Source: an uncultured Pseudomonadales bacterium (lineage in GTDB: Bacteria > Pseudomonadota > Gammaproteobacteria > Pseudomonadales > Porticoccaceae). From it: a DNA stretch of 64,000 nt. Position numbers and translations under genes: made by a program. Below are positions 51,489-64,000 of this stretch, one piece after another. The stretch covers positions 186,001-250,000 of the forward strand of contig CALSRZ010000005.1 in assembly GCA_943788895.1 (NCBI GenBank), given 5' to 3'. Numbering within the stretch: the first letter of the stretch is position 1; every line of letters starts with the position of its first letter. Below the pieces are notes generated by a model. It saw nothing but the letters and a program-made list of their open reading frames with translations, was not told the origin of the DNA and ran no database searches.

Positions 51489-53924
<2,436 letters not shown>

Positions 53925-55013
53925 CTAATCAACTAAAGCAACGCCATGTTCCATGTGGAACATCTGGTGCGGGACTGTCTGCACCAAATCCTCAAAATCT
54001 TTTTTATCGACCCCGGTTATAAAGTACTGACAACCAAGATCATTTAAATACGAAACCACCTGTCCGCGATGCTGGTAATCCAGTTCAGCGGGCAGATCAT
54101 CCAAAAGGAAAAGACAAGATTCCCCTGCATGCTCTCGATAATGGGCGGCTTGCGCTAACTTAAGCGCGTAAACCAAAAGTTTTATCTGCCCTCTCGAGAG
54201 ATGGTCAGCAGCAGTCTGACCATCAACTTTAATTCTTATATCTGCTCGGTGCGCACCGTGACTCGTGGTCTTTGTGCCTATATCACGGCCATGATCTGCG
54301 GCGTAAACATCGGCCAGAGAGCGCTCCTCATCCCAGCCGCAGTAGTATTCAAGGGAAACCTGCCCCAACCCCTCAAATGCACTTACCGCTTGATTTAACT
54401 GCCCGGAAAGCGCTGACAGGTACTCTCGCCTAAACCGGGTTATTTGCTCACAGAGGGGAATTAACTCCGCCGTCCAGGTGCGCAATAAATCTTCGTCTAT
54501 TCTACCATGGCGAAGGAGTTGATTGCGCTGTTTTAGCGTTTTTTGAAAGCGTCGCCAGAGATTAGTGTAATCATGTTCCACGTGGAACACACCCCAATCT
54601 AAAAACTGCCTGCGCTGAAGAGGCCCACCCTCTAAAAGCATAAAACTATGGGCATCGATCAGCTGCAAGGGAAGCTCGGAAACCAGCTGTGCTGCGGTCT
54701 GCAGAGGCTTGCCATCGAGGCGCGCCTCAAACAGGCCCTTGGGTGTGCGCTTGATGCCAAGCTGATGGGCAGTGGAGGTCTGGTCGCGCAAAAGACGCCC
54801 AGAGACAACCAGCTCATCCGCATCATTATTAACCACCACGCGCAGATCGCGATGACGAAAGGAACGGCCGCGGCCAAGAAGATAGATAGACTCTAGAAAG
54901 CTGGTTTTTCCGCTACCGTTGGCACCGTAAATAATATTCGCCTGGGGATGGCAACTGGTGCGGATACTTTTCAGGTTTCGAACCTGAAAAATATCCAATT
55001 GAGATAAATGCAT
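53925..55013 (-). CDS. recF: DNA replication and repair protein RecF
   Basis: IIYGANGSGKTSFLESIYLLGRGRSFR, FLLDDLPAELD. Confidence 0.97.
   Translation of the reverse strand: MHLSQLDIFQVRNLKSIRTSCHPQANIIYGANGSGKTSFLESIYLLGRGRSFRHRDLRVVVNNDADELVVSGRLLRDQTSTAHQLGIKRTPKGLFEARLDGKPLQTAAQLVSELPLQLIDAHSFMLLEGGPLQRRQFLDWGVFHVEHDYTNLWRRFQKTLKQRNQLLRHGRIDEDLLRTWTAELIPLCEQITRFRREYLSALSGQLNQAVSAFEGLGQVSLEYYCGWDEERSLADVYAADHGRDIGTKTTSHGAHRADIRIKVDGQTAADHLSRGQIKLLVYALKLAQAAHYREHAGESCLFLLDDLPAELDYQHRGQVVSYLNDLGCQYFITGVDKKDFEDLVQTVPHQMFHMEHGVALVD
53947..53962. promoter_or_regulatory. parS-like partition site (variant)
   Basis: TGTTCCATGTGGAACA, one change from palindromic TGTTCCACGTGGAACA, inside recF 3' end. 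Confidence 0.65.
54574..54589. promoter_or_regulatory. parS partition site
   Basis: TGTTCCACGTGGAACA, perfect 16-bp palindrome matching the Pseudomonas-type parS sequence, inside recF. Confidence 0.88.
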
Positions 55014-55061: not shown

Positions 55062-56162
55062 TTACAGCCGCATCGGCATAACAACATAGACCGCTGAGCC
55101 ATCAGCTGCATCTTCTACCAGCGCACTGCTGCTGGAGTCGGAAAGCGTCAAGCGAACAGCCTCGCCTTTAAGAACATTGAGAACATCGAGCAGATAGCTG
55201 ACATTGAAGCCAATTTCCAACTCATCGCCAGCGTAGTCAACACCTACAACCTCTTCAGCCTCTTCTTGCTCAGGGTTGTTGGCGACCATTTTAATCGCGC
55301 CATTGGACAGCATAATGCGTACACCGCGATACTTTTCATTGGAGAGAATCGCTGTTCGCCCAAACGCCTGCTTGAGCTCGGCACGATCGCCGATAACCTG
55401 CTTGTCACCACCTTTCGGCAGAACACGGTCGTAGTCAGGGTAAGCGCCATCAACCAGCTTGGAAGTGAAACAGTAATCCCCACCATTGACGCGAATATGG
55501 TTAGACCCCATAGCTACGCGCACTGCGCCCACATCGCTAACCAGGCGCGCCAGCTCCATAACACCTTTGCGCGGCAAGATAGCCTTGGTAAGCTCGGCCA
55601 CTTCGATCTCACAAGCCGCATCGCAGAGCGCCATTCTATGGCCGTCTGTAGCAACAGCGCGAAGCTTGTTGGCACTGACTTCCCACAGCATACCGTTAAG
55701 ATAGTAGCGAACATCCTGCTGCGCCATGGCAAAGGAGGTCGATTCAATCAGGTGCTTCAATGTCTCATTTTCAACATCAAATTCAATATTGTTCTCGCCA
55801 TTATCAACCGAGGGGAATTCATTGGCCGGAAGGGTTGCCAGAGTAAAACGACTGCGGCCGCTCTTGACATGGGCCTTGCCATCACTGCTGGAAAAATCAA
55901 CCTTAGCGCCATCAGGCAGAGAGCGGCAAATATCTAGCAGCTTGCGCGCTGAAACAGTAACCTCACCAGCCTCTTCTGCAGCTGACACATCGGTATAGCC
56001 AATAATCTCAACCTCAAGATCGGTACCGGTTACCGAAAGGCGCGAACCCTCCAGGCTGAGCAATACATTGGAAAGAATCGGCAATGTCTGGCGTCTTTCA
56101 ACAACACCGACAACCAACTGTAAGGGCTTGAGTAATACTTCACGGGAAAGGCTAAATTTCAT
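55062..56162 (-). CDS. dnaN: DNA polymerase III subunit beta (sliding clamp)
   Basis: MKFSLSREVLLKPLQLVVGVVERRQTLPILSNVLL, C-terminal VYVVMPMRL. Confidence 0.98.
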   Translation of the reverse strand: MKFSLSREVLLKPLQLVVGVVERRQTLPILSNVLLSLEGSRLSVTGTDLEVEIIGYTDVSAAEEAGEVTVSARKLLDICRSLPDGAKVDFSSSDGKAHVKSGRSRFTLATLPANEFPSVDNGENNIEFDVENETLKHLIESTSFAMAQQDVRYYLNGMLWEVSANKLRAVATDGHRMALCDAACEIEVAELTKAILPRKGVMELARLVSDVGAVRVAMGSNHIRVNGGDYCFTSKLVDGAYPDYDRVLPKGGDKQVIGDRAELKQAFGRTAILSNEKYRGVRIMLSNGAIKMVANNPEQEEAEEVVGVDYAGDELEIGFNVSYLLDVLNVLKGEAVRLTLSDSSSSALVEDAADGSAVYVVMPMRL

Positions 56163-56246: not shown

Positions 56247-56318
56247 TCAACTGGAAAGCGTCCTATTAGCTAGAATGCGTCCTTTAGCTAGAAAGCGTCC
56301 TAGCTAGAAAGCGTCCTA
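56247..56318. repeat. Four tandem ~18-bp degenerate repeats across the dnaA stop codon/dnaN-dnaA intergenic region
   Basis: Plus-strand units ctggaaagcgtcctat / tagctagaatgcgtccttt / agctagaaagcgtcct / agctagaaagcgtcctat. Confidence 0.85.
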
Positions 56319-57925
56319 TAGAGGTGCTTTAAGTCACGCTCCACCTCGCGATCACTGCCCTCAAGCTCTTTAACCTTGCGACAGGCATGCAGAACGGTGG
56401 TGTGATCCCGGCCACCGAAAGATTCACCGATCTCCGGAAGGCTGTAGTTGGTCAGCTCTTTAGCCAGAGACATAGCAATCTGCCTGGGTCTGGCAACAGA
56501 TCGACTGCGACGCTTGGAAAGCAGATCTGACATCTTTAACTTATAGTAGTCAGCTACCACTCTCTGAATATTGTCTATGGTAACCAGCTTGTCCTGCAGC
56601 GCCAACAAATCTTTCAATGATTCACGAATTAAATCGATATCGATCACCCGGCCACTAAATTGCGCATGTGCCATAACCCTTTTCAGCGCCCCTTCAAGCT
56701 CGCGAACATTCGAGCGTATGCGCTGAGCAATAAAGAATGCCGCATCTCTGGACAGCTCCATACCCACCTGCTCGGCCTTGTTGATCAGGATGGCGACACG
56801 GGTTTCCAGCTCGGGCGGCTCAACCGCTACAGTTAAACCCCAACCAAAGCGGGACTTTAAGCGCTCTTCAACGCCATCAATCTCCTTGGGGTAGCGATCA
56901 GAGGTCAAAATCATCTGCTGACCGCGCTCCAACAGCGCGTTGTAGGTGTGGAAAAACTCTTCCTGACTGCGATCCTTGCCAGAAAAGAACTGAATATCAT
57001 CAATTAACAAAGCATCTACCGAGCGGTAGAACTGCTTAAACTCGTCGATCGCCTTAAGCTGCAGCGCCTTGACCATATCTGCAACAAACCGCTCAGAGTG
57101 CAGATAGACAATTTTCGCATCGGGCTTGCGCTGGCGAAGGGCGTTGCCAACAGCATGCATTAAGTGGGTTTTACCCAGACCAACGCCACCGTATATAAAT
57201 AGTGGGTTATAAGAGCCGCCGGGATTTTCCGCAACTTGCTGCGCTGCAGCCAGAGCGAGCTGATTGGACTTGCCTTCAACAAAGCTATCAAAGGTAAATG
57301 CACTATTGAGATTACTTTTTAAGCTGTGCTCTGCAGCCGAGGTAATAATTTGCGGAGCGGAAATACGTGAAACCGGCTGTACCTGCGGGCTTGGCACAAT
57401 TAACGCGGGCGCTTCAACCGATTCCAGTATCTTTTGTCCGGACGTAGATAAGGGTGTAGATATAGACTCAGTTAAGGGCGCAGGCTGAGTTTGGCTATTT
57501 GCCACAGCATCTAACCGATCGTCGACAATTACGGGGCTGGGCTGGGTTTTAAATGCTGGCGCCCTCTCAGATTCAGAGACAACCGCAACGCTGCAGCGAT
57601 CCGCACCAAACTGTGAAAACAGCGCTTCGATACGCAGTAAAAATTTATTCTGTACCCAATCCTCAATAAAACGGTTGGGCGCAACCAGCTGGATGCGCTG
57701 GCCTATTGAAGAACCAGAATTAGAGCCGTCACCGAGAATCGAATCGCCAGCAAAAAACTGGGCTTTTAGAGGCCTAATCCAGGTATTGAACTGCTGAGGG
57801 GGCAGCTCGTCGGAGAGCTGCTTTGTGCAATCTGACCAGATTGCCTGGAGAGCATTAAAATCCATAGAACCGCTGACACCAACATCACCCACAGAACCAT
57901 GCTCAAAAGAGTTACTTAATTCCAC
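56300..57925 (-). CDS. dnaA: Chromosomal replication initiator protein DnaA
   Basis: 541 aa, [67 protein letters not shown]. Confidence 0.99.
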
Positions 57926-58158
57926 CTATTTTTCTTCCCAACGCAAGATAACCCCAAAGGCAACTTTCACCGAACGGTTGCTTAATCAGCGCTTTATAAA
58001 AGCGTCCAACCAAACAACATGCAAAAGTACAAAACCGCCAACCAAGCTATACAATTTCTTTTTAATTTTTATTCGTTTTATTTTTTCTAAAAGCCAATTA
58101 TTTATATAAAGCACATCAACTTTTTTCGCTGGAATGATTCTATCCGCTTGAAATCCTT

Positions 58159-58167
58159 TTATCCACA
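58159..58167 (+). promoter_or_regulatory. DnaA box (consensus) in the dnaA upstream region
   Basis: TTATCCACA exact match. Confidence 0.8.
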
Positions 58168-58293
58168 CCATGAAAAAAGCACTATTAACACCCCACTTTA
58201 TTTTATTGTTTAATATCAACAAGTTAATGAATATCAATATTTTTTTTATTAACAGGGAGAGAATAAATTATTGGTTAATATTTAACCAACATC

Positions 58294-58302
58294 TGTGCAT
58301 AA
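58294..58302 (-). promoter_or_regulatory. DnaA box in the dnaA upstream region
   Basis: TGTGCATAA = reverse complement of TTATGCACA (TTATNCACA). Confidence 0.75.
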
Positions 58303-58409
58303 CCTGTGTATATCCAGTTAAAAACCAGTGTTTAGAGGGCTCAAACCAAGGATTATGCGGCGCTGACAAAGATGCCGTTAGTGGTTCGTGACTTATTAAA
58401 TAAAATGGG

Positions 58410-59774
58410 TCACTTTCCAATACAGAACGACGAAAAGATATGCCCCAAAAGATCGTCAGAGGTGAACTGTCCGGTAATTTCAGAGAGGTGATTTTGCGCC
58501 TGCCTAAGGTCTTCAGCCAAGAGTTCTCCGGCACCACTGGCACTGAGCTGTCGGCGCCCAGTGTCGACCAACTGCAGAGCTTTTTCTAGGGCATCCAGAT
58601 GTCGTCGACGGGCCGAGAACAAACCCTCCTCCTGACCCTGAAAGCCCATACTGGCCTGCAAAAATGCCACCAGATCATCGAGGCCAGTTCTGTGTTTGGC
58701 GGATATGGCAAAGGTATCTGGCTGCCCCTCGACAGGACCTGAACTATGGCCAGTCTGATCAATCTTATTTAAAACAACACTGATCGGCTGTCGAGCATCG
58801 GTATAGCGAGAAAAATACTCCGGCCAGATAGTCTGCAGATCTGGATGATCGCTGTCACAGGCATCGACCAAAAACAGCACCTGGTCGGCGCGCTCAATCT
58901 CTTGCCAGGCGCGGCGAATACCTTCCAGCTCAACCTCATCATCACTGTCGCGCAAACCTGCAGTATCGACAATATGCAGAGGCATGCCGTCGAGACTAAT
59001 TTTTTCTCGCAGCACATCTCGGGTTGTCCCGGCTACAGAGGTGACAATAGCCGCATCACGACCCGCCAGTGCGTTTAACAGGCTGGATTTACCGGCATTC
59101 GGCTTACCCGCCAAGACCACGGTCATACCGTCTCGCAGTAGTGATCCCTGCTGCGCCTTGCCGAGGGTATCGGTCAGCTCAAAAGAGAGTTGCTGAAGAT
59201 TGGCTGAAAGACGCTCATCGGCGAGAAAATCAATCTCCTCTTCGGGAAAATCAATTGCCGCTTCAACATAAATGCGTATCTGTATTATCTGCTCGACCAG
59301 CTTATTAACCAGCTGAGAAAAATCACCCTGCAGTGATCGCACTGCACAGCGCGCAGCCTGAACTGATGAGGCGTCAATTAGATCGGCAATCGCCTCAGCC
59401 TGGGTAAGATCGAGCTTATCATTAAGAAAGGCGCGCTCACTAAACTCGCCCGGTCGGGCCATTCGCGCACCGAGCTGCAGGCAGCGCTGCAGCAAACCAT
59501 CAAGGATTACCGGGCCGCCATGGCCCTGCAACTCGAGCACATGCTCACCGGTAAAAGAAGCTGGCGCAGGGAAATAAATAGCCACACCCTCATCGAGAAC
59601 ATCATTATCCGCGCCTTTAAATTGACTGAAAACCGCTTCGCGCGGTGGTAGAGGCTTACCGATAATGTCGCTAATTATCTGTTCAATATTGCTGCCGGAA
59701 ACACGCACAATACCAACCCCGCCGCGACCCGGCGGGGTAGCAATAGCAACAATGGTATCCAAATCGTTTTGCAC
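58410..59774 (-). CDS. mnmE: tRNA modification GTPase MnmE (TrmE)
   Basis: [56 protein letters not shown]-terminal FCIGK. Confidence 0.98.
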
Positions 59775-59790
59775 TCTACACCCCTAAACA

Positions 59791-59816
59791 AAAAAGGCCC
59801 TTGGAAGGGCCTTTTT
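59791..59816. terminator. Intrinsic terminator between yidC and mnmE
   Basis: AAAAAGGCCCTT-GG-AAGGGCCTTTTT perfect inverted repeat with A/T tracts. Confidence 0.88.
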
Positions 59817-59818
59817 AA

Positions 59819-61520
59819 TTACTTTTTACTTATCCCAGAGGACTTTCCTGAAGACTTTTGAGACGCCGCTAACTGCCGGTTAACATACCACTGCTGAAGC
59901 ATCGACAGCAGGTTGTTGACCGTCCAGTAGAGAACCAGACCGGAGGGGAAAATCATAAAGAAGAAGGTAAACGCAATAGGCATAACCTTCATAACCATTG
60001 CCTGAGTAGGATCCGTGGGCATCGGCTGCATTTTTTGCATCAACAGCATGCTCGCGCCCATCACTATCGGCAAAATAAAGTAGGGATCTTTAGCCGACAG
60101 ATCGGCAATCCAGAAAATCCACGGCGAATGCCTGATCTCAACACTTTCCAACAGCACCCAGTAGAGCGAGAGGAATACCGGCATCTGCAACAGCATTGGG
60201 AAACAACCACCAGCAGGGTTAACCTTTTCCTTTTTGTAGAGTCCCATCAACTCCTGAGACATTTTCTGGCGATCGTCACCATAGGCCTCTTTTAAACGCT
60301 CCATCTTTGGCTGCAAGCTGCGCATTTTCGCCATAGAGCGAAGACTCGCCGCAGACAGCGGGTAAAGCAGAATTTTAATACCGATGGTCAGCAGGATAAT
60401 CGCCCAACCCCAGTTGCCAACCAGCTCATAAATAAACTTCATGGCAGCAAAAATTGGCTTGGCCAGCATCCACAAAAAACCGTAATCAACGGTTAGGTCG
60501 AGATATTCAGCCAGTGATTCAAGTTTTTCCTGATCCTTGGGGCCCACATAAAACTGCGCACTGTACTCTCCAGTGCTGCCCGCAGGGACAATAAGCTTTT
60601 CACCGGTAAAGCCAAACAGATAGATATCCTGGCCAGATAACTTGCGCAGGCTAAAGCTATTGCTGTCGTTTGTCGGTGGAATCCAGGCACTGATAAAGTA
60701 GTGCTGAACCATAGATACCCAACCACCTTTAATCTCTGCTTTAACTGACTCTTCGCTGACATCGCTAAAATCGTACTTGGAGAAGTTCTTTTCCGGCTCT
60801 CTTAAAGCTGCACCCAGATAAGGACTAACACCACCGCTCGATTCAATAAGAGGCTCATGGGAGTCGCGTTTAATTTGACCATAGAAGGTCGCTTCCCAAG
60901 AGTCATAGCCAGTGTTTTCAATCAGGTAATTAACACCGATCACATATTCGCTTGCAGTGAAGCTAAAGCGCTTAACAATGGTTACACCGTTTTGATTAAG
61001 CTTTAAATCTACATCCAGACTTTGCTGACCAGGCATCAGCGAAAAGTTTGACTGAGTGACGCCGTAAACAGGGCGGCCCTCTCTGGTATCTGTACCGTTT
61101 TTACCAATTAAACCACTCTGGGCAATATATTCATTGTCCTTTGAGCGAGTTAACAGAGTAAAGGGTTTGCCACCATCATCTGCCATGCGGGTTAAATGCT
61201 TAAGCAATTTAACCTGAACAATATCGCCACCAAGGGTATCGATAGTGACTTCAAAGGTATCGGTGGTAACAGTGACCAAGCGGGTATTAACCGGCTTTTC
61301 GATAATGGCAACTGGTGTTTCTGCGAGTGAAGGTAGTTCTTCACTATAAGTGACTCTGCTGTTGAGCCGGCAGAGCTGTCTCTGGAATAAGAAGCTCAGG
61401 AGCAACTGTAGCGGTTCTTTGTTCAGCGGCGCGAAGGTCGCTAAAGTTATTCCACTCGACGACCAGTAACCAAGCAACCAAAGCGATGGCGCTAATATTT
61501 AATGTTTTCTTCCAATCCAT
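59819..61520 (-). CDS. yidC: Membrane protein insertase YidC, reading frame interrupted by an apparent +1 frameshift near 61346-61360
   Basis: Correct N-terminus MDWKKTLNISAIALVAWLLVVEWNNFSD...ETALPAQQQSH starts at 61520 in a different frame and hits TAG at 61344-61346; main body YSEELPSLAETPVAII...WYVNRQL is in ORF 59819..61477 (whose listed N-terminus is out-of-frame read-through). Confidence 0.93.
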
Positions 61521-61537
61521 TCTATTTATAACTCTAT

Positions 61538-61798
61538 TTAATGTTTGTTAGAGGTATCAGCCTCATCCGATTTACCAGAATGCTCTACCGGTAACACCGG
61601 ATCGTAACCCCCTGAATGGAAAGGTTGGCATTTTACAACCCTACGCAGCGTAAGATAACCCCCTTTGAAAATTCCGTAGCGCCTAAAAGCCTCTTCAGCA
61701 TAGCTTGAACAGCTGGGATGAAACCTGCAGTTGCTACCCAGCAGAGGGCTGATTGCATATTGGTAGCCGCGAATAACCGCTATCACTAGCTTACGCAT
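61538..61798 (-). CDS. yidD: Membrane protein insertion efficiency factor YidD
   Basis: [42 protein letters not shown]. Confidence 0.96.
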
Positions 61799-62192
61799 TA
61801 TCTTTACCAGCCTGCTTTTTAGGGTCTTTTTTAGTCTCTTTTTCAAGACGAGCAGATAGTCTAGCCCATGATTGTTGCAACAGGGCTGTCATTTCAGCGG
61901 GAGAGAGTTTATCGGCATCTTTCCGCGCTAAAAAGATAATATCCAGCGAAAGAGGTAGCGGCGTTGTGCGGAATATTTCCCGAACGGCTCGTTTAACGCG
62001 ATTGCGACCGACAGCAGTGGGAACATTTTTCTTACCCACAACTAAACCCAATCGAGACACCTCAGTGTCATTAGGTTTAACCAGGAGTAGATGTTTGGGA
62101 TGAGCAACCCGAAACGCATTATTATCAAAAACCTCTTTAAATTCAGAGGCTTTGAGTAAGCGTCGATCTTTACCGAAGGTTGCTCTGGGCAT
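61791..62192 (-). CDS. rnpA: Ribonuclease P protein component
   Basis: [28 protein letters not shown]. Confidence 0.96.
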
Positions 62193-62209
62193 TAGTAGCC
62201 CCTAATGTT

Positions 62210-62344
62210 TTAGGCGGCTAAACGCTTACGGCCTTTGGCTCGACGACGGTTTATAACAGCACGGCCATTTTTAGTTGCCATACGAGATCTAAAACCATGA
62301 GTGCGCTTACGCTTTAATACGCTTGGTTGAAATGTTCTTTTCAT
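62210..62344 (-). CDS. rpmH: 50S ribosomal protein L34
   Basis: 44 aa [44 protein letters not shown] by direct minus-strand translation; below the ORF track length cutoff. Confidence 0.98.
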
Positions 62345-62999
62345 AACGTCAATTCCGAATAATGTCTACTGTACTCAGTCTGCTGTGCCACATTAAGGCA
62401 GCTACAGATAACGAGTACCGTTCTAGGGCGCGGGAGTTTAATGAAAATCCCCTCCCAATTCAACGCTTTATTATAAATCTTTCACTTACTTTTAATTATT
62501 AGCGGCGTTAATTTAAAGATATTTTTTAAATACAGCTTTATAACAATCAATTAACAGCTTATCCCCATAACTAATCACTTAAATAAGCCTAGACAGCTGA
62601 TTCTGTGGGAAACCTCTGTATAAGCTGAATAATTATCCCCAGAAAAAACCGAGAAATCGCAATACGTTCAAAACGGCAAAATTCTGTACAATTTCAAACA
62701 GAGTTGATACCAGCTTCCAGGATTTTTAACCACTGTTTTATACAGTCAAAAAAACCATCTAACCAATTGATTATTATACAAATTAATCTCTTATCCCCAT
62801 TAGAGGGTCGCCCTAATAACAATAACAATAATCTCTATATACTATATATAAGTATATTTAGTTAATAAGTTAACTGTATATAAAGAGCCTCTAAAAAAAC
62901 TGTCTCCAAACTAATTTCTAAAATAAGGTGGTTAAACTTTAATCAACCGCACGTATAATGGCGACCCTTAAATTTTAACGCTGTAGTAGCTGAAACCCT
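62345..62999. other. Candidate chromosomal replication origin (oriC) region
   Basis: AT-rich ~650 bp noncoding gap between divergent rpmH and mnmG; three copies of TTATCCCCA (62559, 62633, 62791), one mismatch from TTATCCACA; TTATACAAA and TCTGTATAA near-boxes; very AT-rich stretch at ~62820-62900. Confidence 0.65.
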
Positions 63000-64000
63000 A
63001 TGCTCTATTCAGAATCCTTTGATGTCATTGTTGTTGGCGGTGGCCATGCCGGTACAGAAGCCTGTTTGGCAGCTGCACGCATGGGCAGCCGAACCTTACT
63101 TTTGACCCACAATATTGAGACCCTGGGGCAAATGTCCTGCAACCCAGCAATTGGCGGTATCGGCAAAAGCCATCTGGTCAAAGAGATTGATGCGCTGGGT
63201 GGTGCTATGGCGCAGGCGACTGATCTCGGTGGTATCCAGTTTAGAGTTCTCAACTCGCGCAAAGGCCCAGCGGTTAGAGCAACTCGCGCCCAAGCAGACC
63301 GCGTTCGCTACAAAGCGGCGATTCTGTCTATGTTGCAAAATCAGAAAAATTTAACCATTTTCCAACAGTCCGTCGATGACCTAGTGATTGAAGGCGATCG
63401 TGTGACTGGTGTAGTTACCCAGATGGGACTTATTTTTTCAGCCAAGACTGTTGTGGTCACCGCTGGAACCTTTCTCGCCGGCAAGATCCATATCGGCATG
63501 CAGAATTACTCCGCAGGTCGCGCGGGAGATCCACCCTCGATCAATCTCTCCGAGCGCCTGAGATCATTACCGTTTAGAGTTGAGCGCTTAAAAACCGGAA
63601 CACCACCACGTATTGATGCCCGTTCAGTGGATTTCACTCACCTGCAAGAACAGTGGGGTGATAAGCCTGAGCCGGTAATGTCTTATTTGGGGTCTGTCGG
63701 ACAACATCCTAAGCAAACCTGTTGCTGGATTACCTATACCAATAAAACCACCCATGAGATTATCCATAAGGGGCTCGATCGATCGCCGCTCTACACTGGT
63801 GTAATCGACGGTGTTGGCCCCAGGTACTGCCCATCTATTGAAGATAAGATTGTGCGCTTTGCCGATAAGGATCAGCACCAGGTATTTATTGAACCTGAGG
63901 GCCTGGATACTTACGAGCTCTATCCAAATGGAATCTCCACCAGCCTGCCCTTTGATGTGCAGCTTGAACTGGTGCGCTCAATTCAGGGTTTTGAAAATGC
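63000..64000 (+). CDS. mnmG: tRNA uridine-5-carboxymethylaminomethyl(34) synthesis enzyme MnmG (GidA), truncated by window edge
   Basis: [68 protein letters not shown]; not in ORF track because it runs off the window. Confidence 0.98.

Follow-up and report, generated by a model that had tools for sequence, protein, structure and literature searches.

Two probable parS sites embedded in recF and the silent codons they occupy across Gammaproteobacteria

We hold with high confidence that two sites within the recF gene of an uncultured marine Pseudomonadales bacterium (Porticoccaceae) are parS centromere sites, which lie inside the coding sequence and belong to an ordinary chromosomal ParABS system. 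This reading is based on the sequence match, the position of the sites, the presence of parAB genes and the constraint seen at the codon level. For a single genome the arrangement is an ordinary one of the Pseudomonas type, and the pattern across the class is more useful. Coordinates refer to the window, which is the whole 64-kb stretch of DNA that was analysed.

Site A (54574..54589, no strand assigned) is a perfect palindrome, TGTTCCACGTGGAACA, with 0 mismatches to the consensus TGTTNCACGTGNAACA. It occupies recF codons 142-147 (V-FHVE-H), where the protein reads VFHVEHD. Site B (53947..53962, likewise without a strand) is TGTTCCATGTGGAACA on the plus strand and TGTTCCACATGGAACA on the recF strand, and occupies codons 351-356 (M-FHME-H), where the protein reads MFHMEHG. 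It has 1 mismatch to the consensus, located in the core, and keeps one perfect half-site, GTTCCAC. The two sites are spaced by 627 bp, that is 209 codons. A sequence-only reading of this DNA had described the first site as a perfect parS palindrome and the second as one central base off, both inside recF codons. These claims are borne out with exact coordinates, and the identity of the host open reading frame (recF, 53925..55013, minus strand) is supported by its match to TIGR00611 (344 bits against a cut-off of 172).

Within the window, sites A and B are the sole matches with up to two mismatches (expected number 0.09; two matches were reached in 1 of 100 shuffles). A genome-wide search for random occurrences of the motif, a check proposed with those claims, returned, at up to one mismatch, the recF pair alone from all 1.95 Mb of the genome. 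By a simple estimate, 0.007 exact sites and 0.31 sites with up to one mismatch are expected by chance per genome, and 0.0002 of the latter within recF. At up to two mismatches there are six matches, namely the recF pair and four with two mismatches. Since a reversed control pattern matches equally often (6 vs 6), these four are background. Short motifs do arise by chance, as these background matches illustrate, and the palindrome could in principle be an accident of the codons. However, so few exact sites are expected per genome, the motif recurs at the same two codon positions across the class, and hardly any match to the reversed control pattern turns up in the order survey described below. 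We regard a chance origin as vanishingly improbable and, judged by sequence conservation, as already refuted.

The surroundings of recF are those of a chromosomal origin region. Directly downstream, after a gap of 21 nt, lies gyrB (51489..53903, minus strand; TIGR01059 over cut-off), and on the other side are dnaN (55062..56162, minus strand; named from its open reading frame and place in the operon) and dnaA (56300..57925, minus strand; TIGR00362 over cut-off). The full order on the minus strand is rpmH-rnpA-yidD-yidC-mnmE-dnaA-dnaN-recF-gyrB. A candidate oriC (62350..62999, no strand assigned) is AT-rich (33% G+C), holds three TTATCCCCA boxes and has a sign change of the GC skew nearby. Sites A and B lie about 8.0-8.8 kb from this inferred position, consistent with the 8-9 kb from a putative origin that had been proposed earlier. 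To the right of the candidate oriC, the plus strand carries mnmG-rsmG-parA-parB, so that parAB genes, which were to be looked for near mnmG, are indeed present. The window ends inside mnmG, whose 5' part it contains (63000..64000, plus strand); parA (65530-66333 in the frame of the window, L007:3530-4333) and parB (66337-67221, L007:4337-5221) follow beyond it, both on the plus strand.

There is one ParB-like gene in the genome. Aligned to Caulobacter ParB, its product shows the motif VGKSRSAVTN...GHAK and keeps the parS-contacting residues G170, K171, S172, R173, N178 and G201, and R204 has become K (all in Caulobacter numbering). Contact residues of the parS type have been described (PMC7383237), and by this alignment the protein is of the parS-reading type (R173 and G201) and not of the Noc type. 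R204K is found in many members of the ParB family. A link between this replacement and the core change of site B was considered and rejected, because R204K occurs family-wide, also alongside normal sites.

By analogy with P. aeruginosa and other ParB proteins, we suggest that the ParB encoded in the parAB operon, which follows mnmG-rsmG, would load at the perfect site A and, probably more weakly, at site B. From there it would spread by sliding over the DNA near the origin, and the resulting complex would be pulled by ParA so that new origins are segregated. Site B is probably the weaker ParB site, a prediction that follows from its core mismatch (a CATG core): in P. aeruginosa the intact CACGTG core matters for ParB affinity, and an altered core lowers it (PMC4368675); sites with two mismatches are reported to be unbound in vivo (PMC5098823). 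Since P. aeruginosa needs only one of its four origin-proximal parS sites (PMC4368675, PMC5098823), one good site would suffice here.

A recF-embedded parS pair is already known from Pseudomonas and is not new here. Published work locates the closest parS sites of P. aeruginosa PAO1 within recF (PMC3909081), where parS1 and parS2 have been placed (PMC5521831). The gene, the two codon positions and the motif are the same in both organisms (PMC3909081, PMC4368675, PMC5521831, PMC5098823), and in both parAB lies near mnmG-rsmG on the opposite side of the origin. There are also differences. PAO1 has parS3, parS4 and six weaker sites in addition, whereas the recF pair is the whole complement at up to one mismatch here. 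Site A is perfect here and parS1 of PAO1 ends in C; conversely, site B has the core mismatch here and parS2 of PAO1 is perfect. The parS-ParB systems of B. subtilis and Caulobacter share a 16-bp origin-proximal palindrome, a protein of the ParB/Spo0J family and contacts of the R173 and G201 type, but their parS is not located in recF.

Matches were found in 18 of the 21 genomes of the genus, and the other three are 71-82% complete. All 18 carry the recF pair, at a spacing of 624-627 bp, with site A exact in every one. Site B is perfect in 4 and has the CATG core in 14, a change that occurs on either strand, and it is otherwise unchanged in all 18. In 16 of the 18 no further site with up to one mismatch is present. 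The recF pair seems to be the only parS supply in the genus, and a relative with a genetic system could show how few parS sites suffice. Alternatively, site A alone may be a working parS, with site B in the genus a decaying relic or a half-parS and not a loading site. The prevalence of the CATG core, its origin on either strand and the loss of site B from the related lineages L025-L028 agree with this, as does the behavior of P. aeruginosa ParB, which requires the core for high affinity yet binds single GTTCCAC half-sites in vivo (PMC4368675, PMC10419367). However, free decay would hit other positions too, and site B is intact outside its core in every genome and perfect in some. We consider the relic or half-site reading quite possible, though we hold it tentatively; it would leave site A as parS.

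In the order, exact sites were found in 171 of 195 genomes, typically two per genome, about 610-675 bp apart and with a spacing that is a multiple of three. We then turn to 208 gammaproteobacterial recF genes from different species, for which the genomes were picked by protein and not by motif. With up to one mismatch, site A is present in 183 of them, site B in 183 and both in 169, always at the same two codon positions. Both sites are mostly present in the named loci of Porticoccaceae, Halopseudomonas, Stutzerimonas, Azotobacter, Haliea and Halomonadaceae. Most Pseudomonas loci have TGTTCCACGTGGAACC at A and TGTTCCACGTGGAACA at B, in the same alignment columns as here, and these are identical to parS1 and parS2 of PAO1 as listed in PMC4368675. 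Both sites are lost in Marinomonas, and site A is lost in Shewanella and most Vibrio. Neither site is found in E. coli, Klebsiella, Citrobacter or Kluyvera; at the corresponding positions enterobacterial RecF reads FHN-E (A) and MF[TNSA]V (B), the FHVEH motif being lost. Enterobacteria, E. coli among them, lack chromosomal par genes (PMC4368675, PMC3909081). Among 16 recF genes sampled from other classes of the phylum, none has a site. The distribution of these predicted sites shows an arrangement that is ancient across Gammaproteobacteria. As a separate observation, Vibrionales (L302, L307, L315, L324, L325) and Shewanella (L300) that have lost site A carry site B as TGTTTCATGTGGAACA or TGTTCCATGTGGAACA, that is with the CATG core, and these may be either weak ParB sites or relics.

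Since each site is read both as codons and, on our reading, as a binding site, the silent recF positions that parS needs cannot change. When 352 recF columns were ranked by silent codon conservation, every gene being judged against the codon use it shows itself, nearly all top places went to parS codons. Changes were also counted by parsimony on a tree of recF from which the site columns had been left out. At the two sites the wobble of E/K changed in 2/188 and 2/191, that of V in 3/183 and 3/183, and that of H in 11/200 and 12/192. These are the lowest values among two-fold and four-fold columns, for which the medians are 0.24 and 0.48 changes per sequence, respectively. The wobble of F, in contrast, coincides with the degenerate N5 of parS, is free, and changes at an ordinary rate (46/208 and 43/201). 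Frozen and free wobbles are compared inside one set of four codons and on a single tree; an internal control is built in, as the N position of parS stays free. Because the silent positions needed by parS are frozen and the F wobble is not, the sequences argue strongly for selection on the DNA motif and not on the protein. The proposal of a recF coding sequence constrained by the ParB sites it carries is therefore strongly supported by codon-level conservation in the 208 genes and on their tree.

The opposite explanation is that FHVEH and FHMEH are kept for the sake of RecF residues, with the DNA motif a by-product of codon bias. The motif does appear to have a protein role in part, since F143 and H144 are invariant even in the RecF of E. 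coli, which lacks ParABS, and the C-terminal F-x-V-E is partly retained in enterobacteria. However, a protein constraint would not explain why the frozen silent positions are exactly those required by parS, while those it does not need vary freely. Nor does it fit the amino acid changes: the alternative at parS position 12, GAA/AAA, is read as E or K, with 14 changes at A and 31 at B, and E is replaced by K where the parS variant TTTCACGTGAAA occurs. The motif is also missing from the lineages without sites and from all of the out-of-class recF genes. We therefore judge the protein explanation very unlikely and favor parS, whose function has probably fixed RecF amino acids too. A palindromic coupling between N5 and N12 was considered as proof of parS selection and set aside: it is strong in raw counts (Fisher p ~1e-7 to 1e-10) but loses significance on the tree, where few independent pairs are available.

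The recF sites would represent a clean case in which the centromere function of DNA fixes silent codons, throughout a bacterial class, in the gene of a DNA-repair protein with which it has no connection. They also caution against taking FHVEH for a functional RecF motif. Our literature search, made without the Livny 2007 survey, the likeliest place for an earlier description, found no paper on class-wide conservation of recF parS sites or on a codon test of this kind, and we claim no priority.

Only one other cluster of recF codons, 169-172, has comparable silent conservation. It contains an extended -10-like motif, TGGTAGAAT (54499..54507, minus strand; promoter function inferred), 80 nt downstream of the F codon of site A. 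Conservation is seen here in the DNA, as TGNTANA[AC]T, and not in the encoded amino acids, which vary, and relatives have the form TG[GA]TA[GA]AAT at the same place (L011-L039, L070-L098 and others). It is present in 10/10 genomes of the genus, 35/42 of the family, 50/97 elsewhere in the order and 0/59 elsewhere in the class, that is, only within the order; synonymous shuffles give 0.2, 3.5, 4.1 and 0.2, respectively. The 80-nt spacing to that F codon holds in 90 of 95 cases. Its sequence resembles an extended -10 promoter embedded in the gene, and the gene it serves may be gyrB, whose start is 21 nt past the end of recF. Our literature search turned up no description of a promoter within recF of Pseudomonas. 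It has been proposed that excess ParB bound at the recF sites represses the dnaA-gyrB operon (PMC5521831). A broader idea is that recF carries a composite, class-old DNA programme, in which two parS sites dictate FHVE/FHVK in Gammaproteobacteria with ParABS and an extended -10 promoter is placed 80 nt from site A in Pseudomonadales. If this putative promoter drives gyrB, ParB at the centromere could form a direct link between segregation of the origins and the supply of gyrase. We consider this composite reading speculative and rather unlikely.

The recF sites lie farther from the origin here (about 8 kb, measured to the candidate oriC) than in PAO1 (about 4 kb), because the rpmH-mnmE block sits between oriC and dnaA. 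This block (rpmH-rnpA-yidD-yidC-mnmE, 57926-63000 in the window) is collinear with dnaA and placed between it and the candidate oriC (62.35-63.0 kb), whereas in E. coli rpmH-rnpA-yidD-yidC is divergent from dnaA. It looks like the oriC-proximal block has been inverted, which puts a greater distance between the origin and recF with its parS sites. The gap between mnmE and dnaA (57926-58409) is likewise AT-rich, with 33% G+C, and has a perfect DnaA box, TTATCCACA, at 58159; it is possibly a remnant of an origin or a region for dnaA autoregulation.
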